Origin: Thraustochytrium sp. TN22
Lineage: Eukaryota; Sar; Bigyra; Thraustochytrida; Thraustochytriidae
Assembly: GCA_013306675.1 (NCBI GenBank)
Contig: JABLUY010000052.1
Location: 50,875-114,874, forward strand
DNA length: 64,000 bases
Direction of reading: 5' to 3'
Below, one piece after another: positions 3-56,400 of the stretch (positions are counted from its first letter, which is position 1; each line of letters starts with the position of its first letter). Made by a program: the position numbers and the translations under genes. The notes under the pieces are model-generated. The model was not told where the DNA came from, searched no databases, and was given only the letters and a program-made list of their open reading frames with translations.

Positions 3-2108
3 CCAGATGGCGGAGCCTCACACGTGGCATCCTCGTCGACGCTCACGACCGGGCGGACGATCCTGCTCGAGGGCATTCCGAGCGCCAGTGAGTACTCGCT
101 CGAGGTCCGTGCGCGCACGTCGGCCGGCTGGGGACCGTGGTCCCCCACCGTAGTGACCTCCACTTTGCAGCCGTGCCCGACGAGCTACGAGCGGCTTACG
201 TGCTTTGGCACGGGCTGCCCAACCACGTACATTCTGCACGATGATCAGACCACCTACCCGAACTGCGCCATCTGGTGCGTGACCAGTGAGGGCGCCCTGA
301 TCCCGGGCATTGTGTGCAACAAGAGCACAGTGGAGACCGTCGAGCTCAAGGCCGAGTACTGGCGCGCGTGGACGAGCGCACTCGACGTGGAGCGTTGCCC
401 GGCGCCCTCGTACTGCCAACCAGGGGCTGGCACCGCCACCGCCAAGGATGGCGCAAGGGGGAATAGCACTAGCGAAACCGCGGCTGGGCTGCAGACTGAC
501 GTGTACTGCAGCCCGCACCACACGGACGTTTTCTGCTCAGGCTGCGCCGAGGGCTACGGCCTAACTTCAACCGGCTGCGAGGTCTGCACGACCGAGCGCA
601 TAGCGTACGAGTCTCGCTGGGTCTGGGCTCTCTTTAGTGTCTTCGTTGTGGCGAACTGCATCGGCATCGCGATTGTAGTGCGCCGGGGCGTCTCTGCGCA
701 CAAGAAGGCGTACAGGCGCGAGGACCCAAACGATGGCGATGACGAGGAGGAGGAGGAGGAGGAGGAGGTGGGCACGCTCAGTGCGGTACTCCGCCAAATG
801 CCGGCTTTTTTGCCGATAGACCGCAACATGGTGGGCTTCTTTCAGGTCATGTTGCCGTTCGCAAGGACATACGGGATCTTGGGCGGAGCATCCGCTGGCG
901 GCGCAAATGCCGTGAACGGCTCCGTGGAGGCGGTGAGCGGGACAGCGCGCTTCGTGCACGCTTCGGCCCAGGTCGTCTTCAACATGGACATCTCAGTGTT
1001 GTGGGCGGCCTCGCACGTCGAGTGCGCCTTTCCGACGTGGGAGCCTCTCTTCGCGAGGATTATGCTCATCACGCTGCTCCCGATCGTCTTCGTCGCCTCG
1101 CTCTGGCTCTTCGGCGCCGGCCTGGTCGGCTGTGCGTGGCCGCGCGGCCGCGGCAAGGCCCGCGTTCTGGCCGCTCAGATCACCATCCTCGTCTTCTTCT
1201 TCGTCTATCCGAGTGTTTGCGCCGCCCTGACCCAGGCATTCCTGTACAAAACCTTTCAGGTGGACGCGGACAATGCGGTGAGTCGCCTCAAGGCCGACTA
1301 CCGCGTAGCCTTTGGGGAGGGCTCGCTGCATTGGTACAGCGTGCTTTTTGTCATCTTATACGCTGCCGGAGTTCCCTTTCTCTTCTATTGGGCGACCAGA
1401 ACTCGCCAGCGCGCCGATGGCCTCTACAGCGAGGAGGCTGCACCCGACGCACTGGCGGAGGAGGGCATCTCAGACGCCTTTGGGCGCGCCATCGGTGGCA
1501 TGGTCAAGCCGTACCGCGCGGATATGCCGTACTGGGAGGTGGTGGAGCTGGTCCGCAAGCTTTGTATGACGTCCATCTTCCTACTCATCGCGCAGGTGGC
1601 CCCATTGCTCGCACCGGTCGTCTTTCTCGTGCTGGCCGTCCTCTGGTTCCACCTGCTCCAGTCGAATGACCCCTACTTGAGCGGATCCTCCATGTACTGG
1701 GGGAGCAAGCGGACTGCGCAGACGGCCGCCTTACTCCTCTTCTTCGCGTCGCTCCTGCCCATCGTGTCTTCCCTGGACGATGGCGTGAGCTACAATGACC
1801 TTCGGGATGCCGCCATCGTCGCCTGCGTCTTTATGCTCTTGGTCTGGCTCGTGTGCCGGCTCGTAACGTCGGTGCGCAGCACCAAAGCTCCGGCCAAGGA
1901 CGCGGTGAAAACGCCGCCAAGTGACGAGCGCAGCGATGAGACCAAGTCGCTGTCCAGGCAAGGGTCGCTGACTCGGGCTGCTACGCCGCCGCCTGGTCCA
2001 CCGCCAAGCCCAGTCCCGGTGGCCTCCTTTGCGAAGCACGAGGATCCTACAGACTCCTCCTCCCAGGCCGGTGCCACGTCCCAGGTGGCTCAAGTGACCA
2101 TGGTGTAG
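3..2108 (+). CDS. Multi-pass membrane protein with FN3 and Cys-rich ectodomain (5' partial)
   Basis: The frame is open from the window edge, so the start lies upstream and only the last ~700 residues are seen. The first ~55 residues look like the end of a fibronectin type III domain (SLEVRARTSAGWGPWSPTVV). A Cys-rich segment follows, ending with a CxxC...C knot (CSGCAEGYGLTSTGCEVC) just before the first membrane helix at nt ~618-680. After an acidic cytosolic loop (run of Glu, nt 741-768) there are about six to seven more hydrophobic segments, followed by a Ser/Pro-rich C-terminal tail. The design (large extracellular adhesive region, Cys knot, about 7-8 TM helices) resembles giant receptor-like proteins of protists, but I recognise no named family. 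An AATAAA sits at 2233-2238, about 125 bp after the stop. Confidence 0.8.
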   Translation, partial: PDGGASHVASSSTLTTGRTILLEGIPSASEYSLEVRARTSAGWGPWSPTVVTSTLQPCPTSYERLTCFGTGCPTTYILHDDQTTYPNCAIWCVTSEGALIPGIVCNKSTVETVELKAEYWRAWTSALDVERCPAPSYCQPGAGTATAKDGARGNSTSETAAGLQTDVYCSPHHTDVFCSGCAEGYGLTSTGCEVCTTERIAYESRWVWALFSVFVVANCIGIAIVVRRGVSAHKKAYRREDPNDGDDEEEEEEEEVGTLSAVLRQMPAFLPIDRNMVGFFQVMLPFARTYGILGGASAGGANAVNGSVEAVSGTARFVHASAQVVFNMDISVLWAASHVECAFPTWEPLFARIMLITLLPIVFVASLWLFGAGLVGCAWPRGRGKARVLAAQITILVFFFVYPSVCAALTQAFLYKTFQVDADNAVSRLKADYRVAFGEGSLHWYSVLFVILYAAGVPFLFYWATRTRQRADGLYSEEAAPDALAEEGISDAFGRAIGGMVKPYRADMPYWEVVELVRKLCMTSIFLLIAQVAPLLAPVVFLVLAVLWFHLLQSNDPYLSGSSMYWGSKRTAQTAALLLFFASLLPIVSSLDDGVSYNDLRDAAIVACVFMLLVWLVCRLVTSVRSTKAPAKDAVKTPPSDERSDETKSLSRQGSLTRAATPPPGPPPSPVPVASFAKHEDPTDSSSQAGATSQVAQVTMV

Positions 2109-2201
2109 CGTAGCGAAAGACTCGGAAGGAATGGCCTTGACGCCCGTGGCCAAGCGACACACGTGTGACAAACACATGATCACTCCTCCTGGTTTCCCAG
2201 G

Positions 2202-2222
2202 TTAGGCCTAGGCCTAGGAGGA
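2202..2222. repeat. Palindromic TAGGCCTAGGCCTA block between convergent genes
   Basis: A perfect palindrome made of two overlapping AGGCCT units. It lies ~95 bp after the stop of the membrane-protein gene and ~40 bp after the ESF2 stop on the other strand, so it serves both 3' ends. Related AAGGCCTAAGT copies occur just after two other stop codons (about 25411 and 44389). A role in 3'-end formation is only a guess. Confidence 0.4.
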
Positions 2223-2257
2223 ATCATTCACAAATAAAGGCACATGTTGACATAAGT

Positions 2258-3256
2258 TCACGTAAAGATCTGATCCAGAAAAGAGTCGGCAGCGGGCTTG
2301 CCGCCTGCAGCTGCGGCCTTGCGACGCTTCTCCGCGCGGTACTCGTCGCGGGAGTCGAGCTGTTTAAAGGCACGGCGCCGCTCGCGGTCCGAAGTAGCCG
2401 CGCCCTTGTCCTCGCCATCGCCGTTCTTTTTGTGCTTGATCGCCGTCTGAATGCGATGCTCCTGCGCCGCCTTCTCCAGGTACCGCTCGTTCTCGCGCTT
2501 GGCCTGGGAGATCTCCGCGCGCAGTCGGGCGCTGCGGGACCGGCGCTCGTACACCTGCTTCTCTTTGAGGTGCGTCCACTTGAAGCCGGACAGGTACTTG
2601 AGCGACCAGAGCGCATCGTAGTGAAAGTTGCGCCGCTTGCCGCCCACCGGCTTGCCGTTCAGGACCAGCGCCGCGAGCTTGGCGGCCTTGCGATCCTCAA
2701 ACTCTACCCAGCCCTCTTTGTACTTCAACTTATCCCGCCCACCGCCTCGCGCGCGCCGATTGCGCGCCGCCGGATCCTCCGGCTCCAAGTACAGCCGCTT
2801 CACCTTGCCCACCTTTTCCAGGAGGAACTTGACCTTGACAGGCTTCATGAACGCCGGCGGGTGCGCGAGGTACACCACGCCTGGGCGCGGCTTCTTCTTG
2901 TCCGCGACGGAATTTACGCCTGCGGCGGCCAGGTCTTCGTCGTCTTCGTCGTCTTCCTCCTCGTCTTCCTCCTCGTCTTCGTCATCTTCGTCGTCTTTCT
3001 CGGCCTTCTCGTCCTCCTCTTCCTCCTCCTCCTCCTCCTCGTCGTCCTCCAGCTCGTCCTTGTCCTCTGACAGCTGGACGTCCTCCTCCTGGTCCTCCTG
3101 GTCTTTTCCGGACAGCTGGTCGCCCTCCTCCGCCTCCCGCCGCGCGGGCTTGAGCTCGTTCGCCTTCCGGCCAGCCTTGGTTTGCGAGCGGGCGCTGCGA
3201 GGCGCGGCGGCCTTCTCCGCCCGCGCCGCTGCGCTCTCCCGCGCGCGCTTCGCCAT
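2258..3256 (-). CDS. ESF2: ESF2/ABT1-type small-subunit processome factor
   Basis: 332 aa if translation starts at MAKRARES (3256). The frame stays open upstream to 3481 but that part is low-complexity and probably 5' UTR. The N-terminal third is basic then strongly acidic (runs of Glu/Asp, about residues 60-118). From about residue 125 comes the RRM-like core typical of ESF2/ABT1: GVVYLAHPPAFMKP, then the strand/helix with EGWVEFEDRKAAKLAALVLNG, then the hallmark segment FHYDALWSLKYLSGFKWTHL followed by a charged helix (VYERRSRSARLRAEISQAKRE). In yeast, Esf2 acts in the nucleolus in early 18S rRNA processing and stimulates the helicase Dbp8; the same role is inferred here. It converges on the upstream membrane-protein gene with ~150 bp between stops. 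Confidence 0.92.
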   Translation of the reverse strand: MAKRARESAAARAEKAAAPRSARSQTKAGRKANELKPARREAEEGDQLSGKDQEDQEEDVQLSEDKDELEDDEEEEEEEEEDEKAEKDDEDDEDEEEDEEEDDEDDEDLAAAGVNSVADKKKPRPGVVYLAHPPAFMKPVKVKFLLEKVGKVKRLYLEPEDPAARNRRARGGGRDKLKYKEGWVEFEDRKAAKLAALVLNGKPVGGKRRNFHYDALWSLKYLSGFKWTHLKEKQVYERRSRSARLRAEISQAKRENERYLEKAAQEHRIQTAIKHKKNGDGEDKGAATSDRERRRAFKQLDSRDEYRAEKRRKAAAAGGKPAADSFLDQIFT

Positions 3257-4773
3257 CGCTCCTGCGCCTAGCCAGCCAGCACTTGCGGTTCTTGCTCGCC
3301 CCCTGCGCCACCGACCACCGCTCTCTCCTCTCCTCCCATCCCGCCCATCCCGCCCATCCCGCCCCATCCCTGAGATGTCCTCGTTCCCACGTTCCTGTCT
3401 AAATGCACACCTAAGATGAGAGTGACCCGGCAAGTGAGTCATGCCATGATGTCTCTTGCTGCCAGTGATGGTGACTGACATGAATGAGAGGCTGCACTGG
3501 CAGTGCCAGTGGTGGGCGGTCGACCGGGCGACTCGAAGCCAAAGGTAAAGTCTCTTTCAGAAACTGGCAGCCTCTGCAGAGGCCCGCCCGCCAAAGCCTT
3601 CGTCGTGGTCGGCGGGTTACCGGGCGGCGGCGCGCGCGGGCGCAGCCCGAGCCCTCCGCGGAGGGGCGTCGTCGGCGGCGCCAGGCGCTGACGTGCCACC
3701 GATTAGTGGGACGCAGCCGACAAAGGTCCGTCGGAGGCCAGGGCGCCCGACGGCAAACCGCGGCGCCCGAACAAGGCCCGCGCGCCGTGCACCAGCCTGG
3801 CCAGGCTGCTCGGCCGGAGGAGACGACGCCGCTGCCGTGGCAGCTCACGCCGTCACGGGCTTGAGGTCGTGGAGGTGGTGCTCCTGCTTGGCTGGATGGC
3901 CGCTGGGAGCTGGGCTTAGCCGTGGTCGGCGGCACGAATGATGATGCGATCACCGAGTCATCATCGTCCATAACCGGACCGTCGCAGCGACTCGCAGGTG
4001 TCCCATCATCAGCCAGGCAGCCCAGCTGCGATGAGTTGGGAGAAGGTAGGTCGTCGTCGTCGTCGTCGTCGTCATCACAAGACGAGCATGGCGGGCCAGC
4101 CTGAGTGCAGCGGCGTCACCGTCTCACCGTCACGATTGGGTGGGTTCCTGATTCCGTCGAGTCGTCGCGAAGGCGACGTGGAGCCAACCTTCTGACTCAT
4201 CATAGTAGTTGCATCGGCGGCCAGCGTGCCCAAGTCAGCACCGGCTGGTCCAGTCCGGACTTGCGCGCGCGCGCACAAGTGGAGAACCGCGGGTCCGCGG
4301 CCTTGCGGCGCCTTGCGGCGCCTTACGCGCGAGTGTCGCAAACAGCGATTCCCCGGGATACACGATCTTCCACGCCTCATACGCCCTTGGGCCTCGACCT
4401 GGAGGCGGCCGCCATCGCGGCGCGCGCCCGTGCCGACCGCGCAGCTCGCCCGCACGTTCTCGCCGGTCGCCTGGCCACCGGCCAGCGCGCGGAGCGCTGG
4501 CCGCCGGCGAGGCCGGCGAGGCCGGCGGGCCCCGGCGGGGCGTCAGCGGCGCCGGCGCGGCGACGGGGCGGGCCTGGTGCCGGTGAGTCGCCGCCAAGGC
4601 ACAAAAGGCCGGCACAACCGCGCTCTCCTCGCGCGCGTTTGGCCTCCGCGCCGCCCGCCCGCCCGCCCGCGTGCGTGCGTGCATGCATGCGATCGTGCGT
4701 GCCTGTCCGTGCCCGGCCTGCCCAGCCGCCACCGGCGGGCGGCGCCGACTTTGACTTCGGATGTGGGTTTGCT

Positions 4774-11115: not shown

Positions 11116-13353
11116 TCATTCAGAGACAGGCGGCAGGGTCGAGCGCTGCGACAGCGCGTGCGCCTTCCGGACCAGATCGTCCTCGGCAAGGGCCGCAGCA
11201 TCATCCAGCGAGCGAGCTTCCGCGCCATTCTCAAAGTCCTCTGAGAGAGCAGGGTCGCGGCCGCCCTCGGTGGAGCATTCGGAGGAGGTCTCGGACATGG
11301 AAGTGGTGCGCGGCTTGCTGCCCAGCTGGCGGGGCAGCTGGTCGGCCACGACGTCAAGCTTGGCCCGCTCGCCGCGCTCCGCACGAAGGCGGAAGCCGCG
11401 CGGGCTGAGAGGGCTGGTGACCTCCTCGATCGGCGAGCGCGCCTCCGGGCTGGCCAGGGCCGTCTTGACCTCGAGTGACGTCACGGTCCACCGCAGCGGC
11501 GCGGTCATGTCCGAAAAGACAGGCTCCTCACTGGCGGCTGGCTCCTGCGCGGCCTCAACGCCGGCAGCGTGCAGCTGCTGCAGGCCGTCACGGAGAAGTG
11601 AGGCAAAGTCGGGCTCCGCATGCGCAGCGGCCGCGGTCTCGAACTTGGGCACAGGGCCGAGCGGGTCCGCGTCGCGGATCCACAGCCGGTTCGGGAAGGC
11701 GCCTGCACGGGATTTGTGTTTCCACTCGCCCGTCTTCGAGTTGAAGCGGTACAGCGGCAACAGCTTCCACCCGTGGTCTGCGACGGCGCGCACGGCATCC
11801 AGGACGTAGTCGGCCTCCGCATCGTCGAGAAAGTAGGCCAGGCTGAAGCGCGAAAAGCCCGGGCGCAGGAGCTCGGCCACCTCGGGGTTGGCGACCATGG
11901 CGTCCTCGTAGTCCTGCACGGCTGTCTGGTCCATGTCGAAGAGGCGCTGCGTGTAGGGCCCCGCACACATGCAACCACCGCGCGTCTGCACGCCGAAGAC
12001 GTCGTTCAGCACGGCGCACACGAAGTTGTATGGCAGGAAGCGCGCCTCATGGCGGATCAGAAACGAGACAATGGGTAGGCGCGCCACGCCGTCAGCGCGC
12101 GGCGGGCCGAGCAGCACGATGTTGGGATGGCTTTCGAGGCGGTCTGCGATGAGGCGGTTCCACTTGGTCTCCTGCGCGTGGATGCGCTTGTGGCCTACGG
12201 CTTCCTTGAGCTGGAACGCGAGACCCGCGCGGATCGAGCCGACCACGTCCGGCGTGCCGCCCTCCTCGCGTTCCACGGCGTGCGTCAGGTACCGCTGCGC
12301 ATCGTCGCGCACGTAGTAGACGGTGCCACCGCCGATGCTGCCTTCGCTTGGGGTGCCACTCGTAAAGAGTGACTCCTTGGCGATGAGCACGCCCGGCGTG
12401 TTGACGCCGCCCACAAACTTGTGCGGCGACACGAAGACTGCGTCCTTGTGCGCCAGCCCGTGGTCCGGGTGGTCCGCGCCCAGCTCCGGGTTCATGTCGA
12501 TGTGCACGTACGGGCCGGCCGCGGCGTAATCCCAGCAGGCCAGCGCACCGTGGCGGTGCAGCACGGCCGAGACCGCGTCCACGTCCTCGAGGACGCCCGT
12601 GACATTGGACCCCGCCGAGAAGGCGCCCACACGCAACGGGCGGTCGCTGTGCATGCGGAGAAGCTCAGCAAGCACCTCGCGGTCCACCCCGAGGCCGTCC
12701 GGCCGCGCCGGCACGCTGACCACGTCCGCGCCGGACTCGCGCCACGGGAGCAAGTTGCTGTGGTGCTCAAATGCGCCGGTGAAAATCACGGGCCGCGTGC
12801 TGACGTCTTCCGTGGGCTCGCGCAGGCCGAGCACGCTGACCAGGCGATTGATGGCACCCGTGCTGCCGGAGCCCGTGAAGATGACGACGTCGCGCTGCGC
12901 GTTGACGGCGTGTTCGATGATCTGGCGCGCCTCGGCGCGGAAGCACGTGCTTTGCAGGCCGGTCGCAGACGTGAGTGTGTGCGTGTTGGCGTAGAGCGGG
13001 TACACGCGGTCGCGCACGAATGCGTCGACGCTATCAAAGGCACGGCCGCTGGCGGTCCAGTCCGCATACACGATGGGCTTCTGACCGAAGGGAGTGTCGA
13101 CGGGCGTGTAGGCGCCCACAACACCCCTGCGCATGCGCTCAAGGGCAGCTTCATCCCCAGGCGTCCCAATCATCCCAGGCATCACGATGGCATTGTCCTG
13201 CGGGATTGCCTGCTTCTCCTTCTGCTGCTGCGGCTGCTGCTGCGGCTGCTGCTGCTGCGGCTGCGGCGGTGGTGGCGACTGCGGCTGCTGCAAGGGCGGC
13301 TCCGGCTGCAGCGCGAGGTCCTTGGCAAGCTGCTTGCTCTGCGTGCAGCCCAT
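11116..13353 (-). CDS. Class V aminotransferase / cysteine-desulfurase-like, MGCTQS-anchored (paralogue 1)
   Basis: 745 aa. It begins MGCTQSK: Gly2, Cys3 and Ser6 match the N-myristoylation plus palmitoylation signal known from Src-family kinases (MGCxxS), so membrane attachment is inferred. A Pro/Gln linker (nt ~13200-13320) leads to a PLP-dependent class V fold: YADWTASGRAFDSVD, TGSGSTGAINRL, the PLP lysine in SPHKFVGGVNTPG (about Lys312), and RGGCMCAGPY with Cys461/Cys463. This Cys motif sits where SufS-type desulfurases have RxGHHCAxP and MOCOS-type sulfurases have a Cys pair, so sulfur mobilisation from cysteine is a reasonable but unproven activity. A ~190-residue C-terminal extension is shared in part with the two neighbours (GEWKHKSR, QLHAAGVEAA, PLRW). 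It is the first member of a tandem minus-strand array of three. Confidence 0.88.
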   Translation of the reverse strand: MGCTQSKQLAKDLALQPEPPLQQPQSPPPPQPQQQQPQQQPQQQKEKQAIPQDNAIVMPGMIGTPGDEAALERMRRGVVGAYTPVDTPFGQKPIVYADWTASGRAFDSVDAFVRDRVYPLYANTHTLTSATGLQSTCFRAEARQIIEHAVNAQRDVVIFTGSGSTGAINRLVSVLGLREPTEDVSTRPVIFTGAFEHHSNLLPWRESGADVVSVPARPDGLGVDREVLAELLRMHSDRPLRVGAFSAGSNVTGVLEDVDAVSAVLHRHGALACWDYAAAGPYVHIDMNPELGADHPDHGLAHKDAVFVSPHKFVGGVNTPGVLIAKESLFTSGTPSEGSIGGGTVYYVRDDAQRYLTHAVEREEGGTPDVVGSIRAGLAFQLKEAVGHKRIHAQETKWNRLIADRLESHPNIVLLGPPRADGVARLPIVSFLIRHEARFLPYNFVCAVLNDVFGVQTRGGCMCAGPYTQRLFDMDQTAVQDYEDAMVANPEVAELLRPGFSRFSLAYFLDDAEADYVLDAVRAVADHGWKLLPLYRFNSKTGEWKHKSRAGAFPNRLWIRDADPLGPVPKFETAAAAHAEPDFASLLRDGLQQLHAAGVEAAQEPAASEEPVFSDMTAPLRWTVTSLEVKTALASPEARSPIEEVTSPLSPRGFRLRAERGERAKLDVVADQLPRQLGSKPRTTSMSETSSECSTEGGRDPALSEDFENGAEARSLDDAAALAEDDLVRKAHALSQRSTLPPVSE

Positions 13354-15296: not shown

Positions 15297-17582
15297 TCAG
15301 AGCCAGGGCTGGGCCGAGGACTGGGCGTCGGCCAAGGTTTGAGTGTGAGGCTGGCGCAGCTTGCGCGTCACCGACAGCCTGAGGGTGTCGTCGACCTCAC
15401 CGTTGCGGCTGTCGGGGCTCTCAAGCTCGGTATCGGACTCGGGTTCTTCGCCGTCAACGTCGGAGTTCTCGCAGGACGAGGACGCGCCGTCGGAGAAAGA
15501 AGCGGTGAGCAGGTCATGCTTGGAACGGTGGTTCGTGAGGTCGTCGCTCTTGTTCTCAGTGACCTCGGCCTCCTCCTCCTCCTGTCGGGCTAGGCGCAGC
15601 TGCTCGAGCGCCGCGCCGAGGTGCATTGTCTCGCCGCGCTCCACGTGCCGGCGATACGTGTCTGGGTCAAGCGGGCCTGCGAGCGGCAGGAGGTCGGGAG
15701 ACTCGACGGCGGTCTTGCCAGAGCCCTCGTGCAGACGGGCGCCGACCTCCTCGGGCATGACGAACCAACGCAGAGGCGCTACGTCGGCCGCGAAGAGCGT
15801 TCCCTCCGTCTGAGCTTCCTTGGCAGCCTCAACGCCGGCAGCGTGCAGCTGGGCCACGCCCACGCGGAGTAGGTCCGCGAAATCCGGCTTAGCATGCGCG
15901 GCATGCACGTCGTCCACGGACGCGCGCCGCGCAGGGCCGAGCGGGTCCGCGTCGCGGATCCACAGACGGTTCGGGAAGGCGTTGACGCGCGTTTTGTGCT
16001 TCCACTCGCCCGTGCGCGGATTGAAGCGGTACAGCGGCAGCAGCTTCCAGGCGTGCTCGGCAACGACGCGCACAGCATCCAGTACGTAGTTGGCCTCGTC
16101 GTCATCGAGAAAGTAGGCCAGGCTGAAACGCGTGAAGCCCGGCCGCAGGTACTCGGAGTGCTCCGGGTTCGCAACCATGGCATCCTCAAAGGCCTGCACC
16201 ACGTCCTCGGACATGCCGAGCAGGCGCTGCGTGTACGGGCCGGCGCACATGCAGCCGCCGCGCGTCTGCACACCAAAGACGTCGTTCAGGACGGCGCACA
16301 CGAAGTTGTAGTGCAAGAAGCGCGCCTCGTGGCGGACTAGGAACGAGACGATCGGCAGGCGCGCCACGCCTTCGGTGCGCGGCGGGCCGAGCAGCACAAG
16401 CTTGGGGTGGCCCTCCAGACGGTCCACCACGCGGCGGTTCCACTTGGCCTCCTGCGCGTGAATGCGCTTGTGGCCCACAGCCTCCTTGAGCTGGAACGCG
16501 AGGCCCGCGCGGATCGAGCCGACCACGTCCGGCGTGCCGCCCTCCTCGCGCTCCACGACATTGGAAAGGTACCGCTGCGTGTCGTCGCGCACGAAGAGCA
16601 CCGTGCCGCCACCGATGCTGCCCTCGCTTGGCGTCTCGCTCGTAAAGAGTGCCTCCTTGGCGATGAGCACACCCGGCGTGTTGACGCCGCCCACAAACTT
16701 GTGCGGCGACACGAAGACTGCGTCCTTGTGCGCCAGCCCGTGGTCCGGGTGGTCCGCGCTCAGCTCCGGGTTCATGTCGATGTGCACGTACGGGCCGGCA
16801 GCGGCGTAATCCCAGCAGGCCAGCGCACCGTGGCGGTGCAGCACGGCCGAGACCGCGTCCACGTTCTCGAGGACGCCCGTGACATTGGACCCTGCCGAGA
16901 AGGCGCCCACACGCAACGGGCGGTCGCTGTACGCGCGGAGAAGCTCAGCGAGCGCCTCGCGGTCCACGCCGAGGCCGTCCGGCCGCGCCGGCACGTTGAC
17001 CACGTCCGCGCCGGACTCGCGCCAGGGCAGCAAGTTGCTGTGGTGCTCGAGCGCGCCGGTGAAGACCACGGGCCGCTTGGCACCGTCTACGACCGGCTCG
17101 CGCAGGCCGAGCACGCTGACCAGACGGTTGATGGCGCCTGTGCAGCCAGAACCCGTGAAGATGACGACGTCGTGCTGCGCGTTGACGGCGTGTTCGATGA
17201 TCTGGCGCGCCTCGGCGCGGAAGCACGTGCTCTGGAGCCCTGTCGACGAGGTTAGCGTGTGCGTGTTGGCGTAGAACGGGTAGACACGGTCGCGCACGAA
17301 GTCGTCGACGCTGTCAAAGGCGCGCCCGCTGGCGGTCCAATCCGCGTACACGATGGGCTTCTGGCCGTAGGGCGTGTCTACGGGAGCATAGGCGCCCACA
17401 ACGCCCTCACGCATGCGCTGGAAAGCCGCATCGTCCAGCATCAACTCGGCCGAGCCCAGCCCACTGACGCTCTCCAGCGTCGTGCTCACGCTCTCGTGCG
17501 CCTCGTGGAGCTGCGACGCGCGCCTGGGCTTCTTTCGCAGACGCTGCCCCTGCGCGTGTGCCTGACTCTGCGTGCAGCCCAT
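15297..17582 (-). CDS. Class V aminotransferase / cysteine-desulfurase-like, MGCTQS-anchored (paralogue 2)
   Basis: 761 aa, closely similar to the downstream neighbour through the catalytic part. It begins MGCTQSQAHAQ, again a dual-acylation signal. PLP lysine about Lys295 (SPHKFVGGVNTPG); cysteines about 444/446 in RGGCMCAGPY. The N-terminal linker differs from that of paralogue 1 (no Pro/Gln run). The C-terminal extension carries PLRWFVMPEEV, DPDTYRRHVERG and then a highly acidic/Ser-rich tail. Retention of the lysine and both cysteines argues for an active enzyme. The strong conservation between paralogues 1 and 2 suggests recent duplication or gene conversion. Confidence 0.88.
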   Translation of the reverse strand: MGCTQSQAHAQGQRLRKKPRRASQLHEAHESVSTTLESVSGLGSAELMLDDAAFQRMREGVVGAYAPVDTPYGQKPIVYADWTASGRAFDSVDDFVRDRVYPFYANTHTLTSSTGLQSTCFRAEARQIIEHAVNAQHDVVIFTGSGCTGAINRLVSVLGLREPVVDGAKRPVVFTGALEHHSNLLPWRESGADVVNVPARPDGLGVDREALAELLRAYSDRPLRVGAFSAGSNVTGVLENVDAVSAVLHRHGALACWDYAAAGPYVHIDMNPELSADHPDHGLAHKDAVFVSPHKFVGGVNTPGVLIAKEALFTSETPSEGSIGGGTVLFVRDDTQRYLSNVVEREEGGTPDVVGSIRAGLAFQLKEAVGHKRIHAQEAKWNRRVVDRLEGHPKLVLLGPPRTEGVARLPIVSFLVRHEARFLHYNFVCAVLNDVFGVQTRGGCMCAGPYTQRLLGMSEDVVQAFEDAMVANPEHSEYLRPGFTRFSLAYFLDDDEANYVLDAVRVVAEHAWKLLPLYRFNPRTGEWKHKTRVNAFPNRLWIRDADPLGPARRASVDDVHAAHAKPDFADLLRVGVAQLHAAGVEAAKEAQTEGTLFAADVAPLRWFVMPEEVGARLHEGSGKTAVESPDLLPLAGPLDPDTYRRHVERGETMHLGAALEQLRLARQEEEEAEVTENKSDDLTNHRSKHDLLTASFSDGASSSCENSDVDGEEPESDTELESPDSRNGEVDDTLRLSVTRKLRQPHTQTLADAQSSAQPWL

Positions 17583-20076: not shown

Positions 20077-23000
20077 TCACTCGTCATCTTCCGGCGCCTC
20101 CTGCGTCTTCGATGCGTCGTCGCGCTTCGCCTGCATGCGGGCCTTGTAGCGGTCAGCAGGAGTCGGGAGGTCCTTGACGAACTTGTTCATGGAGGCGAGA
20201 ATGTCGGCGTCCATGAGCGGGACAAGCGCGCGGCGCAGACTGTTGAAGAGACCCGGGCAGGTGGCCTCCTCGCGCGCGAGCATGCGCTTGATGCGTTGGC
20301 GCTCCTGCGGCGCCTCGAAGCAGGCCGGGCAGTTCTCGTTAATAACGGGCAGCTTGACCGCGTACGAAAAGGCCTTGGTCTCCTGCTCGCGCACGTAGGC
20401 AAGCGGGCGGATGACGCGCAAGTCGCCCTTCTTCTCCATGTAGTTGGCCATCATGGAGCGCGCATGACCGTTGTGGAAGAGACCCATCATGAGCGACTCG
20501 GCCATGTCGTCCAGGTGCTGGGCCAGCACGAGCTTGTTGTATCCATTGTCGCGTGCGCACGTGTACAGCGAGCCGCGCTTCATGCGCGCACAAAAGCTGC
20601 AAATGGACGTGCCACTGAGCGAGCCGGACTTGGCCAGGTCGAAAATGGGCTCCTTGCGGTAAAAGTATTTGACGCCGAGCGACTCCATGTACGGGATGAG
20701 CGGGCTCGGGTCGAAGGCCTCGGTCATGGGGTCAATCGTGCAGGCCGCCAGCTCGAAGCGGATCGGCAGCTTCGCCTTGAGGTGCAGGAGCACGTGCAGC
20801 AGCGCCAGCGAGTCCTTGCCGCCCGACAAGCCGAGGAGCAGGCGATCGCCCGCCTCGATCATGTTCCACTGCGTCACGGCCTTGCCCACATGCTTCAAAA
20901 TCCCCTTGGGGATTTTGGGCCGCAGCACCTTGGGCAGCTGGATGCCCGCCGCGGCGGCCGCAGCCTCGGGGCCGGCCGACCCGCCGCCGCCGCCGCCGCC
21001 GGCCGCGGCAGCGGCTGCGGCGGCCGCGGCGCCCTGCAGAGCCTGCGCGCCGTCCTCGCCGCGGCTCATCTCCGCCGTGCGCAACGGGTACTTGTCAACC
21101 TTGCGAATCCGAAAGCACGAGTTGTCCTCGCACACCACGTCTGCCGGGGCCGCCTTCTTGGCGCGCTTGGCCGGCTCATGCGCCAGCTCTGCGTCCTCCT
21201 CGTCGCCGCCCGCCGCAGAGGTTGATGCTGTGGACGCGGACGCCGTCTCCGACGAACGCTTTCGGCCGGGATCAGCTGCCACGGGCGCCTGCCGCGGCAG
21301 GCCCTCGCGCAGGTGCGCCCAGTACTTGAGCGGGTCGATGGGGCCCTGGCCGACCACCGTTGTGCCGGCGGTGGGCGCAGAAGCCGACGCCGCACCAAGA
21401 GCGGCGCCAGAAGAGGCATCGCCCGCAGCGCCCCCGCGCAGCGCAGCGTGCGCCTCCGAGGGCATCACGAACCAGCGTAGCGGCGCCACCTCCGGCGTGA
21501 AGAGCTGCGTTTGGTCGCCCAGTGTCTCGCGCTCGGCGTCCCTGGCGCCGTCCAGGAGCTGCGCCACGCCGGCCGCCAGCACCTCGGCAAGCGGCCTGTC
21601 CACGACCGGGAGTGGCGCACGGGCCGCCTCGGCCTCCTCCTCGTCCTCGGGCGTAGCGCCGCCCAGGAGTCCGGCATCCTCCAGCCAAAGCCGGCCCGGG
21701 AACTTGGTGAAGCGCGTGCGGTGCTTCCACTCGCCCGTGCGCGTGTTGAACCGGTACAGAGGCAGCAGGCGCCAGGCGTGCTCGGCCACGGCACACACGG
21801 CATCCAGCACGTAGTCGACTTCCTCCTCGCTGCTAAAGTAGGCCAGGCTCAGGCGACTAAAGCCAGGCCGCATGTACTCGGAGTGCTTCGGATTGCGCAG
21901 CAGCTCGGCCTCGATGGCCTCCACCGAGGCCTGCGACATGCCCAACAGCCGCTGCGCATAGGGGCCTGCGCACATGCAGCCACCGCGCGTCTGAACGCCA
22001 AAGACATCGTTCAGAACGGCTGAGATGAAATTGTAATGCAGGAAGCGCTCGCCGTGCCGCACGAGGAAGGACACGATGGGAAGCCGCGGCGCGGCCGTTG
22101 CCGCGGCGTCGCCGGCCGGCCAAGCCGGGCCCAGGAGCGCCAGCTTCGGGTTCGAGCCCAGCTTGGCCGCGACACGGGCGGCCCAGGCGCGGTCGCGCGC
22201 CTCGATGGTGTCGCAACCGACCGACTGCTTGAGCTGGAAGGCGAGGCCCGCGCGGATGGCGCCCACCACGTCGGGCGTGCCGCCCTCTTCGCGCTCCACG
22301 CGGTTCGACAGGTACCGATGGCCGTCCTCGCGCACGAAGTACACCGTGCCTCCGCCCACGCTGCCAGAGCCCGGCACGGCGTTCCCGAAGAGCCGCTTCT
22401 TGGCGATGAGGACGCCAGGCGTGTTGACACCTCCTACGAACTTGTGCGGCGACAGAAAGACCGCGTCCTTGTACGCCAGCGTGCGGTCCGGGTCCTCCCC
22501 CGGAAGAACCGGATTCATGTCCACGCGCACATACGGGCCGGCCGCGGCATAGTCCCAGCACGCCAGCGCGCCATGGCGGTGGAGCAGCGCCGAGATGCGG
22601 TCCACATCCTCCAGCACGCCCGTAACGTTGGACCCGGCAGAAAACGCGCCCACGACAAGCGGCCGCGATGCGTACTCCTGCAGCAGGCGCGTCAGGGCCG
22701 CCTGGTCGATGCCCAGGCCGTCCTCGCGTTCAGGCACCGAGACCACCTCGGCGGTCGACTCGCGCCACGGCAGCAGGTTGCTGTGGTGCTCGAAGGGCCC
22801 GACCAGGACCACGGGCCGCGGGCGCGCCGCCTGCTCCGGCCCCAGCGGCACGTCTAGGCCTAGAACGCTCACCAGCTTGTTGATTGCGCCCGTGGCGCCC
22901 GAGCCCGCAAAGAGCACCACATCGGTGCGGGTGTTGCCGTTCACGGCCTGCTGCACAATTTGGCGCGCCTCGGCGCGGAAGCAAGTGCTCTGCAGGCCTG

Positions 23001-23280
23001 TCGCCGACGTGGACGTGTGCGTGTTTGCATACAGCGGGTACACCTTGTTACGCACGTAGTCCTCCAGCGGCGCGAAGGCGCGCCCGCTCGCCGTCCAGTC
23101 CGCGTACACCAGCGGCTTCTCGCCGAAGGGCGTCTGCACGGCGGCGCGGGCGCCCACCACGCCGCGCCGCACGCGCTCCAGCGCCTCCTCGCCGCTCACG
23201 CCCGCGCTGCGCGCCGCGCGCGGCGGCTCCTGCGCGTCCGCCACGAACTCGCGAAAGCCCTCCTCGTCCTCGCCCTCCAT
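20077..23280 (-). CDS. Fusion: class V aminotransferase (desulfurase-like) + TtcA-type tRNA thiolase (paralogue 3)
   Basis: 1067 aa from MEGEDEEGF at 23280; the frame is open to 23526, so a longer N-terminus is possible. Residues ~45-520 form the class V domain homologous to the two neighbouring genes, with PLP lysine about Lys280 (SPHKFVGGVNTPG) and cysteines about 435/437 (RGGCMCAGPY). There is no MGCTQS anchor. After a linker and an Ala/Gly-rich run, residues ~775-1040 form a PP-loop ATPase of TtcA type: WNMIEAGDRLLLGLSGGKDS (Lys about 822), ICSFCARMKRG (Cys894/897), LAQHLDDMAESLMMG and NCPACFEAPQERQRI (Cys984/987). TtcA uses ATP and an Fe-S cluster to thiolate cytidine 32 of tRNA, receiving sulfur from a cysteine desulfurase. 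Here donor and acceptor appear to be in one chain. The catalytic roles are inferred from motifs. Confidence 0.92.
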   Translation of the reverse strand: MEGEDEEGFREFVADAQEPPRAARSAGVSGEEALERVRRGVVGARAAVQTPFGEKPLVYADWTASGRAFAPLEDYVRNKVYPLYANTHTSTSATGLQSTCFRAEARQIVQQAVNGNTRTDVVLFAGSGATGAINKLVSVLGLDVPLGPEQAARPRPVVLVGPFEHHSNLLPWRESTAEVVSVPEREDGLGIDQAALTRLLQEYASRPLVVGAFSAGSNVTGVLEDVDRISALLHRHGALACWDYAAAGPYVRVDMNPVLPGEDPDRTLAYKDAVFLSPHKFVGGVNTPGVLIAKKRLFGNAVPGSGSVGGGTVYFVREDGHRYLSNRVEREEGGTPDVVGAIRAGLAFQLKQSVGCDTIEARDRAWAARVAAKLGSNPKLALLGPAWPAGDAAATAAPRLPIVSFLVRHGERFLHYNFISAVLNDVFGVQTRGGCMCAGPYAQRLLGMSQASVEAIEAELLRNPKHSEYMRPGFSRLSLAYFSSEEEVDYVLDAVCAVAEHAWRLLPLYRFNTRTGEWKHRTRFTKFPGRLWLEDAGLLGGATPEDEEEAEAARAPLPVVDRPLAEVLAAGVAQLLDGARDAERETLGDQTQLFTPEVAPLRWFVMPSEAHAALRGGAAGDASSGAALGAASASAPTAGTTVVGQGPIDPLKYWAHLREGLPRQAPVAADPGRKRSSETASASTASTSAAGGDEEDAELAHEPAKRAKKAAPADVVCEDNSCFRIRKVDKYPLRTAEMSRGEDGAQALQGAAAAAAAAAAGGGGGGGSAGPEAAAAAAGIQLPKVLRPKIPKGILKHVGKAVTQWNMIEAGDRLLLGLSGGKDSLALLHVLLHLKAKLPIRFELAACTIDPMTEAFDPSPLIPYMESLGVKYFYRKEPIFDLAKSGSLSGTSICSFCARMKRGSLYTCARDNGYNKLVLAQHLDDMAESLMMGLFHNGHARSMMANYMEKKGDLRVIRPLAYVREQETKAFSYAVKLPVINENCPACFEAPQERQRIKRMLAREEATCPGLFNSLRRALVPLMDADILASMNKFVKDLPTPADRYKARMQAKRDDASKTQEAPEDDE

Positions 23281-29922: not shown

Positions 29923-32136
29923 TCAGGTGATCACGAGCGTGCCGTTCGCTTGCGGGGAGTCGTCACTACAAGGCAATGCCGTGGTAGTGCGAGCGGCCCC
30001 ACTTCCGACGTCTGCAGTCTGCCGCTTCGCGGGCTCTACACTCGCAATCGGAACCGCCTTCTCCCAGTCGGTGGGCGCGTCGATCCTCTCTCTCTCTCGC
30101 TCGCTCGCTCGCTCGCTCTCGCTCTCGCTCTCGCGCTCGTTGGCGTTGCGATGACTGGCCAGGTAGAGACGCCGCGCGAGCAGGGCCACCGCCAGGAGCA
30201 AAAGGAAGACCAGCACGAGCATGACGATGAAAGCCGCCAAGTACGAGGTGCCCTCATCGTCCGGGGCCTCCCCCTTGACGATCGGCGGGTCAATCGAAAC
30301 AGTGGGCGTCGGCTCTGGCGTGGGGGACGCCGTAAAGCAGTTGTGCGGCGAGGCATCCTCGTCGCAGACACCGGCGTCGACATCGCCCACGCACTGCTTG
30401 GTGAAGAGCGAGCCGAGGCTGACCGAGTGCGTGCAGGCCGGCAGCGTCGCGTCGTAGACCTCGAGGTTGAGGATGGGCTTGTTGCTTTCGAGCAGGTCTG
30501 CGTAGTCTGCGCACTGATTCTTCGAGAGACAGTTGACTGAGAGCGAAAAGGCGAGAATATCAGACAGCGCGCGCACCAGTCGAGCTGAGGGGTGGCGAAG
30601 GCCCACGGGGAGTCCAAGGGTCGTGCTGCGCACCGCGAGCCACCGCGCGTAAGCCGTCCATACCTCAAGGGCAATATCGCTCCCCTCGGTCTGCAGCGCG
30701 CGGCGGTCCTGGAACGCGAGGCTTGTGAGCGTTGCGTTGAGGCACGTGACGTTCACATCGCATTGCAGGTCGGTCAGGGCGACGGCCCAGCAGCCACGGG
30801 CCGCCGCAAGGCGGAGGCGCGCGTCCATGACGAGCTTCAGCGTGCCGAGCTGAGCGAGGTCAAACCAGGCCGACCCTTCGGAAAGACGTAGCGAGGCGAG
30901 CAGTGAGGCGTCCTCCTCGGCGGCGTCCTCGATGGCGCCGGCGGAGAAAGAACAGATCACACGGTGGCCGGCTTGGGCAAGGCGCGCCACGTCGTCTTTC
31001 GACCACAGGCTCTCCACCGTGTACTGCAGGGTTGCGGCGTCGGCGTCTGTGTCCACACGTCCATCGAGGAGCGCCCAGTCCACTTGGACACCCACGAGCG
31101 AGCTGGCCACCGAGGTGGCGGCCGGCGGCAGCGTGGGCGTGGCAGTGGGCGTGAGCGTGGGTGCCAGAAAATCGGCCTCGAAGCAGTTGGTCCACGGCAC
31201 GCCCGGCGTGCAGAGGCCGTCGTCATCCTCCTTTACCTCGCAGGTCTTCCGCATGAGGCCGAGCGCCTGCGCGTCCTCGCAGGCCGTGGAGGATGGGGTG
31301 TACTCCACATTGAGCACGGCCTTGTCGTTGTCGAGGAAGGGCTGCAGCATGTCGCACTCCTCGTACTGCGCGCACTGCTCGTTGATGGCAAAGTCGAAGC
31401 TGGGCTCCAGCTCCGCGACGATACCGAGAGCGTTCTTGAGTGCGATGTTGAGTCCCAGCGCGTGGCTCGCCTCGGCGAGCCATTTGTTGTAGGCGACCTG
31501 CGCGGCCTTGCGCTTCTTGGTGCCCGTGTTCGCGAGCGACGACTGCTTCCAGCAGTCCCCGTTGGCGTAGCAGTCAACGTTGTCCGCCTCGACGCCGTCG
31601 CAGCCCTTGGCGGCAGCCAGCTCGAGCCGCGGCTGCATGAGCGCCTGCAGCTGCTCGAGCTGGCCGATGTCAAGCCAGGCTTCCAGCGCCCAGTCGTCCA
31701 TCTGCCCGGCAACCGCTGCGTCCCAGGCGCTCTGATTTTCCTGCACATCCTCGCGCCAGGTCTCGAGCGTGCCTGCGCTAAAGTAGCACACCACGATCCT
31801 GCCCTCCGCGCTCCACGCGCGCACGTTCGCCTCGTCCTCGTCGAAGAGGTCCACCAGCACGAGGCGCGCGCCCCCCGCCTCGTCTCTGCCGCCGCCGTCG
31901 AAGCCCCACGCCAGGTTCGCCCACGGCATGTCGCGCGGCACGGCGCGTCGCGCTTCCGCCGCCGTCGTCGCCATCGCCGTCGCCCACGCCGCCGCGCACG
32001 CCCACGCCGCCGTCGTGACCGCGGCCGCGGCCGCGCGTGACCCAGCGCGCCAGGGCCTCCGAGGCTGCGGCTCCCTCATCACCACGCCTGCGCGAGTTGG
32101 CCACGACGGGGAACTGAACCGTCTTCGCTCAGCCAC
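29923..32136 (-). CDS. Membrane-anchored protein with two GH114-like (endo-polygalactosaminidase-type) domains
   Basis: 737 aa; the second Met (MREPQPRR, 32079) may be the true start because it directly precedes the Ala-rich signal peptide. The first TIM-barrel-like domain (about residues 65-320) shows GH114/TM1410-like features: LVLVDLFDEDE, IVVCYFSAGTLETWR, AWLDIGQL and GVEADNVDCY, the last holding conserved acidic residues. The second domain (about 345-620) is a diverged repeat (RVICSFSAGAIED, AWFDLAQLGTL) in which the acidic motif reads CWAVALTDLQ, so its active site looks lost. Then comes one TM helix (AFIVMLVLVFLLLLAVALLARRL) and a cytosolic tail with ESES/ERER runs encoded by a TCGC/TCTC microsatellite (~30083-30140). 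GH114 enzymes cut alpha-1,4-galactosamine polymers. The substrate here is unknown. Confidence 0.8.
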   Translation of the reverse strand: MAERRRFSSPSWPTRAGVVMREPQPRRPWRAGSRAAAAAVTTAAWACAAAWATAMATTAAEARRAVPRDMPWANLAWGFDGGGRDEAGGARLVLVDLFDEDEANVRAWSAEGRIVVCYFSAGTLETWREDVQENQSAWDAAVAGQMDDWALEAWLDIGQLEQLQALMQPRLELAAAKGCDGVEADNVDCYANGDCWKQSSLANTGTKKRKAAQVAYNKWLAEASHALGLNIALKNALGIVAELEPSFDFAINEQCAQYEECDMLQPFLDNDKAVLNVEYTPSSTACEDAQALGLMRKTCEVKEDDDGLCTPGVPWTNCFEADFLAPTLTPTATPTLPPAATSVASSLVGVQVDWALLDGRVDTDADAATLQYTVESLWSKDDVARLAQAGHRVICSFSAGAIEDAAEEDASLLASLRLSEGSAWFDLAQLGTLKLVMDARLRLAAARGCWAVALTDLQCDVNVTCLNATLTSLAFQDRRALQTEGSDIALEVWTAYARWLAVRSTTLGLPVGLRHPSARLVRALSDILAFSLSVNCLSKNQCADYADLLESNKPILNLEVYDATLPACTHSVSLGSLFTKQCVGDVDAGVCDEDASPHNCFTASPTPEPTPTVSIDPPIVKGEAPDDEGTSYLAAFIVMLVLVFLLLLAVALLARRLYLASHRNANERESESESERASERERERIDAPTDWEKAVPIASVEPAKRQTADVGSGAARTTTALPCSDDSPQANGTLVIT

Positions 32137-53461: not shown

Positions 53462-56400
53462 ATGACCGCGACGAGCTTGAGCGCGAACGCCGTGCGACTG
53501 TCAGAAGAGCAGCCAGAGAGCAAGCTGTTCGTCTGGCTTGATGAAAAGGGCAAGGAAGCCGCCACGCTGACGCGCCGCGAGCTCGTCACCAAGGCGCTCG
53601 CCGTCGCGCACGCCATGGAGCACGCTTGGGGTGTCCGTCGCGAGGAACTCGTACTGCTCGTCTTCTTGCCAGGCATCGACTTCATCGTGGCCATGCTCGC
53701 ATGCTTGCTCGGCGGCTTCGTCGCAGTACCCATCTACCCGCCGGATCCAGGCAGCCCCCAGCCAGGGCTGGCCAAGCTATCCAAGGCCGTGGAACTGACG
53801 CAGCTCACCCACGTGCTCTCGCACACCAGCTTTCTGCGCGCACGGCGGCTCCTGATCGGCGCAAGCAAGTTCCCTGCTGGCCTCAAATGGCACGACGTGT
53901 GCAAGACCAGGCCGCCCCGCGAAATGAGCATGCCGCAGCCGACAGCGCCCTCGGCCTTGGCCTTCGTGCAGTTCTCGAGCGGTAGCACAGGCGACCCCAA
54001 GGGCGTCTGCGTCACACACGCGAACCTCAACGCCAATCTCGAGAGCATCCGCAGGTCACTCTCCTGGACTGAGGCCACAGTAGGAGTCGCCTGGGTGCCC
54101 TTTTACCACGACATGGGGCTCATCGGCTGCATCCTCAGCACTATGTATGCCGGTGGGCTCAGTGTACTCATGTCGCCCGTGGCCTTCTTGCGCCGCCCTT
54201 CGCTTTGGCTCCAGGCTATCTCCGATTATCGCGCTGCCCACACCACGGCGCCCAACTTCGCCTACGAGCTTGCGGCACGCAAGACCCCAGACAGCGTGCG
54301 CGCCAAGCTCGATCTCAGCTGCTGCACGCGCTGGCTCAACGGAGCCGAGCTTATTCGCGCGGAGACCATCGCGAACTTCGTGGAGGCCTTCAAGGTGCAG
54401 GGAGTGCGCCAAGGCGCCATGCTCCCGCTCTACGGCATTGCCGAGAACGTGCTGCTCGTCACGCAGCAGCGAGCCCCACTGGCAAAGCCTATCACCGTGC
54501 GACTGCGGGTCGCCTATGGACGCGAGGCCGGCTCGGCGATTGAGCTCGCGGCAGGATGTGACGAGGACGCTCACACCCTGGTGGGCAACGGGGTCCCGGC
54601 GCCGGATGTCGTGGTGCTCGTGGTGCATCCAGACACGCGCATGGAGGTCCCGGAGGACCACGTCGGCGAGCTGTGGGTGACGGGCCCGTCCAAGGTCTGC
54701 GCGTACGTGGCCCGGCCCGAGCTGTCCGAGAGTCAGCTCAACGCAGAACTTGCCAAACCTGACGGCAGGACCTTCCTGCGTACTGGCGATATGGGCTTCA
54801 TCCATCAGGGCGAGGTCTTCGTGTGCGGGCGCATCAAGGACATGCTTATCGTCCGGGGCCGCAACATCTTTCCGCAGGATATCGAAGCTAGCGTGGACGC
54901 CTGCAGCGCCGCGATCCGGCCGGGCTGCTGTGCCGCCTTCTGCCTCCCTCAGTCGGAAGACATCGTGGTGGTAGCCGAGGTGCGCGACGCCAAGACGAAG
55001 GATGCGACGGAGCTCGCAGATGCCGTGCGAGGCGCCATCACGCGCAATCATGGCTTCTCGCCGCTTGCTGTTGTGCTCATCAAGCCACGCACCGTGCCCA
55101 AGACCACGAGCGGCAAGATCCAACGCCGGGCCACACGCGATGCGTACACGCAGGGCAAGCTTGCCGTTGTAGCTCTGAGCGACAGCACTCTGGGCGCGCC
55201 TAGCTTCGCGTCAAGCCCGACGCCCACGGTGCAGCAGCCCGATGACGACCCAAAGACCCGCCTCGATTGGCTGCTCGCCAAGACTCGGGAGAGCCTGGGC
55301 TCGCCATCGCTGGGCGCCGATGACGACCTCTTCGGGGCTGGTATGAGCTCATTGGCAATGGTGGAGGTGACCACACATGTGGAGTCTCTCCTCGGCGAGG
55401 AGAGCTCTGGCGTGGAGTTGGAGTTTATCGCGACGCACAGAACCGTGCGTCGTCTCGCGGCAGCGGCGGAAGCAACCCGCAGTGGCAAGAAGAGATTTGA
55501 GGATCTCTGGCGCGATCCAAGCCCCCCTCTGCCCACCGTCACCGTGTGCATGCTACAGTTCATTGGTATCTGGGTTGTCTTCTTCGAGCTGGCAGCCGCC
55601 ATCATCCCGGCGTACCACTACGGGTACTGGGTGCGCTTCGAGAGCGAGCTGGGCGAGCCCTGGGTCTATTACCGTGTCACCGACAGCGTCGCCATGTTCG
55701 GTCTGCTCATGCCATTTGTCATCCCGGTCTGGATGCTGAGCTTCTCGGCACTCGTCATTTTGACCAAGTGGCTCGTGGTGGGACGCTGGACGCCTCGCGA
55801 GGTGGAGATTGACTCCCTGCCGTATTTGCGCTGGTGGCTCGTTGACCGCCTCATGCACATGTGGGGCACCGCCGTGGGACGCTGGCTCGTCGATACGCCA
55901 CTACTCAACGTGTTCTATGTTTTGCTCGGCGGGCGCGTGGCCTTCACAGCCACATTAACGACCCTCCTGCGCGACCTCGACCTCGTTCACATTGCCAAGG
56001 GCGCTTCCGTCAAGGGTTCCGTCGTATGCCGCGTCTTTGACGCCAAGAACAGAACGCTTCGATTTCGGGACGTCAAACTCGGCGAAGGCAGTCATGTCTG
56101 TTCTGGCGCGATGGTCATGCTGGGCGCCAGGCTCGACGAGCACGCGGAGCTGGAGGCCCTACGGGTGGCAAGTGAAGGCGCCCATATCACGGGCGGCGGC
56201 GAGACGGATCAGACAAGATCTTCATCCACACTGCGCACACTCGGCGACCTTGTGGCCAAGGTGCTCATCATGTGCGGGATTCTCGAGATCTACTTCGCAG
56301 CCAGTGTCGTCAACCTGCTCGTCTGGGAGGTCTGCGGCTATCCGAGCGACTTTCGCTATGCGGACCTCGCGTTCTGGGCCTCATCCTATTTCTTCACGGC

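Follow-up and report, generated by a model that had tools for sequence, protein, structure and literature searches.

A 64,000-nucleotide stretch of Thraustochytrium sp. TN22 DNA (GenBank assembly GCA_013306675.1, contig JABLUY010000052.1, positions 50,875 to 114,874 of the forward strand), referred to below as the window, encodes a single chain in which a cysteine-desulfurase-like class V pyridoxal 5′-phosphate (PLP) domain is fused to a PP-loop domain resembling the tRNA thiolase TtcA. The best explanation, held with moderate confidence, is one bifunctional protein whose desulfurase half feeds sulfur to the TtcA-like tRNA thiolase half. The fused gene appears real, and the observation of the fusion in a eukaryotic contig was confirmed. 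Its frame runs on the minus strand from an ATG at 23280 to the end of the stop codon at 20077 (1067 codons, zero internal stops), and a Pfam search of the translation placed Aminotran_5 (residues 58–491, E 1.8e-30) and ATP_bind_3 (residues 814–978, E 2e-13) on the same chain, both with a match strength far above chance. This bears out the one-chain fusion described in an original prediction made from the DNA letters alone, and the motifs named there were located, with SPHKF starting at residue 277, GCMC at 434–437, SGGKDS from 819, CSFC from 894 and CPAC from 984. Up to E 1, the Pfam search of the chain gave nothing beyond these two domains and a MOSC domain was not found. The gene and its parts are as follows.

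20077..23280, minus strand: fusion gene, class V PLP domain, linker and TtcA-like PP-loop domain (1067 codons; Pfam and open reading frame).
21808..23109, minus strand: class V (SufS-like) PLP domain, residues 58–491 (Pfam, alignment, model and fold search).
22441..22443, minus strand: K280 in SPHKF, the Schiff-base lysine, aligned with the lysine of E. coli SufS (alignment).
21970..21981, minus strand: GCMC, residues 434–437, with C437 aligned to the SufS persulfide cysteine and C435 an extra cysteine (alignment).
21301..21750, minus strand: C-terminal extension of the desulfurase half, residues 511–660 (matches to paralogues and relatives).
20926..21300, minus strand: low-complexity linker (KRAKK, poly-Ala, poly-Gly), residues 661–785, about 125 residues (sequence, low model confidence).
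20161..20925, minus strand: TtcA-family PP-loop domain of the ENCPAC subgroup, residues 786–1040 approximately (Pfam, fold and tree).
20809..20826, minus strand: SGGKDS ATP pyrophosphatase loop, residues 819–824 (alignment).
20590..20601, minus strand: CSFC, with C894 and C897 as predicted [4Fe-4S] ligands (alignment; role by analogy with TtcA).
20320..20331, minus strand: CPAC, second cysteine motif; the third cluster ligand is predicted to be either C984 or C987 (alignment).

The fused protein begins MEGEDEEG, and upstream of the ATG the frame is still open to 23526 with no further ATG on offer. The linker, with its many Ala, Gly and charged residues, has low confidence in the structure model. 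Its third-position guanine-plus-cytosine (GC) content was 0.80–0.88, with a whole-gene mean of 0.87 and a total GC of 0.65 in the neighbouring intergenic DNA. In nearby intergenic DNA, a frame stayed open by chance for 120 codons at 924 of 8992 starting points (10.3%) and for 140 codons at 660 of 8872 (7.4%), and from openness alone the shared frame of the two halves is less certain than the presence of the domains. The main support for one protein is that no stop separates two intact domains and that the paralogues described below stop at about this place. Bacterial contamination of the contig was rejected on the basis of the eukaryotic genes that the window also encodes, namely a MyTH4-FERM myosin, an Upf2 homologue and a WD40-cyclophilin.

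The PLP half was aligned with 80 bacterial loci and the two other class V genes of the window (83 members with the fused gene), together with E. coli SufS, CsdA and IscS. The column of H165 held His in 83 of 83 members, those of K280 and D243 held Lys and Asp in 82 each, C435 was Cys in 80, and C437 and R476 were Cys and Arg in 79 each; all remaining members had gaps, so that no substitution occurred in these six columns. E. coli SufS has His, Lys, Asp, Cys and Arg in the columns of H165, K280, D243, C437 and R476, and the column of C435 is His in SufS and Gln in CsdA. The half has the class V fold, PLP lysine, His, Asp, catalytic Cys and Arg expected of SufS-like group II desulfurases. In the AlphaFold model, residues 31–520 had a predicted local distance difference test score (pLDDT) mostly above 90, and a fold search of the PDB returned 1412 chains (E up to 0.001), of which the 50 listed were all cysteine desulfurases or selenocysteine lyases with target-normalised TM-scores of 0.81–0.88. 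The extension at residues 511–660, modelled with confidence, with dips, to about residue 610, is partly common to the paralogues, and the matches of several gammaproteobacterial relatives extend into it. Persulfide chemistry of the PLP half is likely. A non-desulfurase clade, the outcome that would have undone the original prediction, was rejected on five catalytic columns unsubstituted in the 83 members and on the 50 listed PDB neighbours, and the desulfurase character is in keeping with relatives that partly lie beside persulfide and cysteine genes. The GCxC region of the fusion presumably resembles that of MOCOS. A PADLOC scan gave weak DndA/SspA matches to the PLP half and nothing else.

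The C-terminal half carries the SGGKDS PP-loop and the central CxxC by which TtcA proteins are recognized, and the CxxC cysteines are cluster ligands in TtcA (PMC5372745, PMC6082896; papers are cited here and below for particular passages). A second CxxC is present but its setting is ENCPACF and not the canonical PCNLCGSQ, and LAQHLDD occurs where TtcA has LGHHRDD. Among named families TtcA scored best, followed by TilS_N at 61.6 bits, and the half shared 36% aa identity with E. coli TtcA over 232 residues. Modelled alone, it reached a pLDDT of 78, with TtuA and NcsA as the nearest solved structures, followed by TilS. For the cysteines of E. coli TtcA, a passage of the review PMC5372745 gives positions 122, 125 and 222. 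In the K-12 sequence position 222 is not a cysteine; cysteines occur at 122, 125, 210 and 213. The putative ligands of the Pseudomonas aeruginosa enzyme are C115, C118 and C206 (PMC6082896).

Relatives sharing the ENCPAC motif were found in a search of 299 genomes of Pseudomonadota, the phylum of Pseudohalioglobus (locus L024), whose listing of matches extended to E 1e-42. Two proteins, from loci L186 and L187, showed 51% and about 49–50% aa identity to the PP-loop half, other PP-loop matches giving 32–37%. In the tree, the half formed one clade with L186 and L187 (support 100/99), all sharing ENCPAC, and this clade was the sister of proteobacterial TtcA (95/90) and did not fall inside it. Both proteins also scored below the NCBIfam TtcA equivalog cut-off of 272 bits (231.4 for L186 and 196.9 for L187), as compared with 473.8 for a canonical TtcA (L103). 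The thiolase half is, by its sequence, not a canonical TtcA but a member of a sister subgroup. Neither of the two ENCPAC genomes had a class V match among those listed. The L186 and L187 proteins have AQH or AHH where TtcA has GHH, and in L186 the ENCPAC gene adjoins genes whose translations look, by eye, thioredoxin-like and DsbD-like. A Ctu1, NcsA or TtuA identity of the PP-loop half was not favoured: the approximately unbiased test gave p = 0.033 against it in a tree with long branches that did not include the ENCPAC relatives, and the groups formed separate clades in the later tree. NcsA and the PP-loop half have LDD and CSFC in common; terminal CxxC pairs of the Ncs6/Ctu1 zinc-finger type were not noticed in the half by eye, with no dedicated search made.

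Relatives of the class V half were sought with two peptide patterns in a collection of 84,980 species, each represented by a single genome. This gave 87 relatives, the best 80 loci being used for the alignment and for neighbour counts, and the best bacterial matches shared 43–52% aa identity with the desulfurase half (Halieaceae, Rhodococcus and others). Among plasmid matches, the gene is named “aminotransferase class V-fold PLP-dependent enzyme” in 23 of the 25 listed records and has no annotation in the remaining two. When the neighbouring frames of the 80 loci were grouped by BLAST, one group lay near the class V gene in 28 loci, within 250 bases in 27 and divergently oriented in 26; two members were scanned and both matched Lrp, identifying an Lrp/AsnC-type regulator. 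A gene of the metallo-beta-lactamase (MBL) fold lay directly downstream, with ends touching or overlapping, in 7 of the 80 loci; of the three scanned, two matched Blh, a persulfide dioxygenase, scoring 378 and 540 bits against a cut-off of 625. The order Lrp/AsnC, class V, MBL fold recurred in two of five annotated plasmid regions that were opened, and a third region had an L-2-amino-thiazoline-4-carboxylic acid hydrolase two genes downstream. The gene neighbourhoods suggest that the bacterial family, or at least some of it, acts in cysteine and persulfide metabolism.

The window contains two further class V genes in tandem:

15297..17582, minus strand: tandem paralogue 2, 761 aa, class V domain, no PP-loop domain, MGCTQS start (Pfam, BLAST and tree).
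11116..13353, minus strand: tandem paralogue 3, 745 aa, class V domain, no PP-loop domain, MGCTQS start (BLAST and tree).

Both share 64% aa identity with the fused gene, over residues 30–660 (paralogue 2) and 27–618 (paralogue 3). The three genes formed one clade (Shimodaira-Hasegawa-like approximate likelihood ratio support 99) from which the fused gene split off before the other two diverged, in a quick tree with long outgroup branches. A PP-loop domain was looked for in both paralogues and not found. The fusion had been taken to predict the specificity of the whole paralogue family, a claim that is not supported because the paralogues lack the PP-loop domain and begin MGCTQS; moreover, no thiolase was found in the 80 bacterial loci, whose neighbours point to cysteine and persulfide metabolism. 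We take the MGCTQS N-terminus to resemble an N-myristoylation and palmitoylation signal; from this motif, the products of 15297–17582 and 11116–13353 may be membrane-anchored desulfurase-like enzymes.

The assembly holding the contig (37.9 Mb, 453 contigs) was searched for other sulfur and tRNA-thiolation genes. The PP-loop search gave two matches (a TilS-like gene and the fusion), the NcsA search gave the fusion alone at 34.9 bits, and the search with the whole fusion protein gave three matches. Urm1 (PF09138), CTU2 (PF10288) and Ctu1 were not found in the 37.9 Mb, with weak controls that included no eukaryote, and this absence is only suggestive, given such controls and an assembly of unstated completeness. 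Genes that were found include Elp3 (two copies), UFM1 (132.8 bits), MnmA, an NFS1-like desulfurase (named by eye) and a single ThiF protein with a rhodanese-like tail that looks MOCS3-like by eye. If the Urm1 and Ctu genes are truly absent, the fused enzyme would be the obvious candidate to thiolate cytosolic tRNA, and a eukaryote would be able to swap an ancient pathway for a bacterial-type enzyme. That a eukaryote has replaced the Urm1–Ctu1–Ctu2 relay by one polypeptide from two bacterial-type genes, carrying sulfur to the wobble uridine (or to C32), is a speculative and rather unlikely proposal. To our knowledge, 2-thiocytidine (s2C) at C32 in this organism would be the first eukaryotic s2C. 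Two other fused genes were seen in the assembly. Locus L004 (contig C51, 511–2817) joins DUF924 to a PP-loop domain that is TilS-like in look, and locus L007 (contig C374, a 12 kb contig, 1480–3471) joins a class V domain, NifS/IscS-like by eye, to an alanyl-tRNA-synthetase-type SAD domain, giving an apparent second desulfurase fusion.

Sulfur relays to tRNA usually hand a reactive persulfide between separate proteins. The statement in the original prediction that desulfurase and thiolase are separate in known systems holds for E. coli IscS and TtcA, a desulfurase plus an iron-sulfur (Fe-S) PP-loop tRNA thiolase (PMC5372739), which differ from the fusion in being two proteins with an IscS-type donor, the TtcA-like half here coming from the sister subgroup. 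It does not extend to ABA3 and CD-rhodanese, which fuse a desulfurase to other acceptors. ABA3/MOCOS is likewise a eukaryotic class V desulfurase fused to its own sulfur acceptor, and the persulfide formed on conserved Cys430 of ABA3 is handed to its own C-terminal domain (PMC3916724); its acceptor, unlike that of the fusion, is a molybdenum cofactor domain (MOSC) and not a PP-loop thiolase. The CD-rhodanese of Pseudorhodoferax is a natural fusion of desulfurase and sulfur carrier that is described as bifunctional (PMC8931425), but it is bacterial, was found through COG1104, and in the passages cited has a rhodanese acceptor and no nucleic-acid substrate. The engineered MnmA-YrvO joins a tRNA thiolase to its desulfurase and complements in Plasmodium (PMC10219651), but it is man-made, has the reversed order and uses an MnmA-type thiolase listed as Fe-S independent (PMC5372739). 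Also similar are the ENCPAC proteins of the two Pseudomonadota genomes, alike in motif and clade but read as stand-alone genes, and the bacterial class V relatives, alike in catalytic residues and extra cysteine but with no thiolase domain found in 80 loci. Fusions of a desulfurase to a sulfur acceptor are therefore already known; no description of a eukaryotic desulfurase joined to a TtcA-type thiolase, or of any desulfurase-TtcA fusion, was found in the literature as judged from titles, abstract openings and selected passages.

A tblastn search for a thiolase domain in the best 80 of the 87 class V relatives found none. In the 299 Pseudomonadota genomes, with at most two candidates taken per genome, 0 of 49 matches covered both halves; among 118 plasmid records, none had one place covering 80% of the query, and nothing related to the fusion or to the ENCPAC subgroup turned up when viral contigs were scanned three times. 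Of 30 genomes with a class V gene, 22 held a PP-loop match (E up to 1e-5) and none exceeded 37% aa identity, so that no one bacterium emerged as the donor of the two halves.

In the favoured scheme, the N-terminal SufS-like half would take sulfur from L-cysteine by means of PLP and keep it as a persulfide on C437, with C435 as a possible participant in persulfide handling. The sulfur would then pass, within the chain or between the chains of a dimer, to a [4Fe-4S] cluster predicted on C894, C897 and either C987 or C984, and the C-terminal half would activate a tRNA carbonyl with ATP through SGGKDS and replace its oxygen by sulfur. The sequence and models show the single frame, the two domains, the conserved catalytic residues, the folds and the place in the families; we infer the activity, the cluster, the direction of sulfur flow, the in-cis transfer and the localisation, probably outside organelles, and in-cis channelling can fairly be inferred. 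In E. coli, s2C at position 32 (s2C32) depends on IscS together with TtcA, whose cluster is bound by three cysteines (PMC5372739, PMC5372745). The fusion bears on the question of the sulfur donor to TtcA, and a chain with both a desulfurase and an Fe-S thiolase would allow direct transfer to be tested in one purified protein.

A number of results count against a single bifunctional enzyme of this kind. The PLP half scored 103.4 bits, far below the NCBIfam SufS cut-off of 475.1, and is for this reason best regarded as a desulfurase-like family of its own and not as SufS proper; a PLP enzyme with such residues might also use selenocysteine or a different thiol as its substrate. The thiolase half reached about 209.2–213.6 bits, below the 272 of the TtcA equivalog, and it had no usable model in the whole-chain AlphaFold prediction, in which the PLP half was confident, perhaps through misalignment of rows that carried a single half. 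The 82 codons that continue the frame ahead of the ATG have a third-position GC of 0.79, as compared with 0.80 in part of the linker, and for this reason the linker value is only moderate evidence of coding. Among bacterial neighbours, the third MBL-fold gene scanned scored 97 bits for Blh and the same for hydroxyacylglutathione hydrolase, and two of the five plasmid regions (Rhodococcus and Deinococcus) had no sulfur-metabolism neighbour. The survey for the fusion elsewhere that had been proposed found no second genome with it among the bacterial loci, genomes and plasmids searched. Lastly, Bacillus subtilis MnmA without a desulfurase complemented in Plasmodium in one of four attempts (PMC10219651), so that a tethered donor is not always required.

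Two of the alternatives weighed are versions of the bifunctional reading and differ in the tRNA position served. By analogy, C32 is the default taken from the nearest characterised relative and position 34 would be a serious alternative. The fusion may make s2C32, the product of E. coli TtcA, and the desulfurase half would then be the dedicated donor; this is possible, though doubtful. TtcA was the best-scoring named family (213.6 bits), its clade is the sister of the ENCPAC clade, and the fusion carries the sole TtcA-family domain found in the genome, but the domain belongs to a separate subgroup under the cut-off, and the 2018 introduction of PMC6082896 knows s2C32 only from Archaea and Bacteria. 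Neither the s2C32 assignment nor the complete TtcA-like domain of the original prediction is supported in that form, on account of the sister subgroup and the score. Alternatively, in a lineage without Urm1, Ctu1 and Ctu2, the fusion could have taken over cytosolic wobble thiolation, forming 2-thiouridine at position 34 (s2U34) and reducing the relay to one chain, which seems unlikely. The genome had no match to Urm1 or CTU2 and no Ctu1 among the PP-loop, NcsA and whole-protein matches, while Elp3, which prepares the same wobble base as s2U34 thiolation, is present twice, and UFM1, another small ubiquitin-like protein, was found. However, the absence of CTU2 is not demonstrable because its search matched none of 14 control genomes, the Urm1 search matching one and the NcsA search nine (one over the cut-off), with no eukaryote among the controls, and intron-split genes may escape a search of a draft assembly. 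The genome also has a MOCS3/Uba4-like protein, although MOCS3 serves molybdenum cofactor synthesis as well; MnmA might serve position 34, and TtcA, the nearest named relative, acts on C32.

The remaining alternatives depart from the joint function of the two halves. Separate production, from an internal start or promoter near M738 or by later proteolysis, would leave the single frame with little functional meaning; it is consistent with the Met at 738 ahead of the PP-loop domain, the linker modelled as disordered, the chance openness of this GC-rich DNA and the open upstream frame with its similar third-position GC. It is nevertheless distinctly unlikely, as no stop lies between the halves and the fused gene continues where the paralogues terminate (761 and 745 codons). 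A catabolic desulfurase half, acting on cysteine or persulfide as in bacteria, joined to a PP-loop half that is inactive or thiolates a target other than tRNA, would agree with the Lrp/AsnC-type regulators beside bacterial relatives, with the persulfide dioxygenase-like genes and the thiazoline carboxylic acid hydrolase at some loci, and with the lack of a recurrent tRNA-modification gene among the neighbour groups listed, not all of which were annotated. The PP-loop motif residues are however intact and the closest folds are tRNA thiolases, making this improbable.

In addition to the genes discussed above, the window was found to contain no tRNA genes, and several of its other frames are worth noting. 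The frame at 59431–62073 (minus strand, 880 residues) has a cysteine-rich start and, like the neighbouring frame at 58458–59723, no Pfam match at E up to 0.001. At 29923–32136 (minus strand), one chain contains two stretches matching glycoside hydrolase family 114 and, by eye, a possible C-terminal membrane segment, and the frame at 53462–57643 (plus strand, 1393 residues) combines an AMP-binding enzyme and a carrier domain with a long C-terminal part to which no Pfam family was matched.

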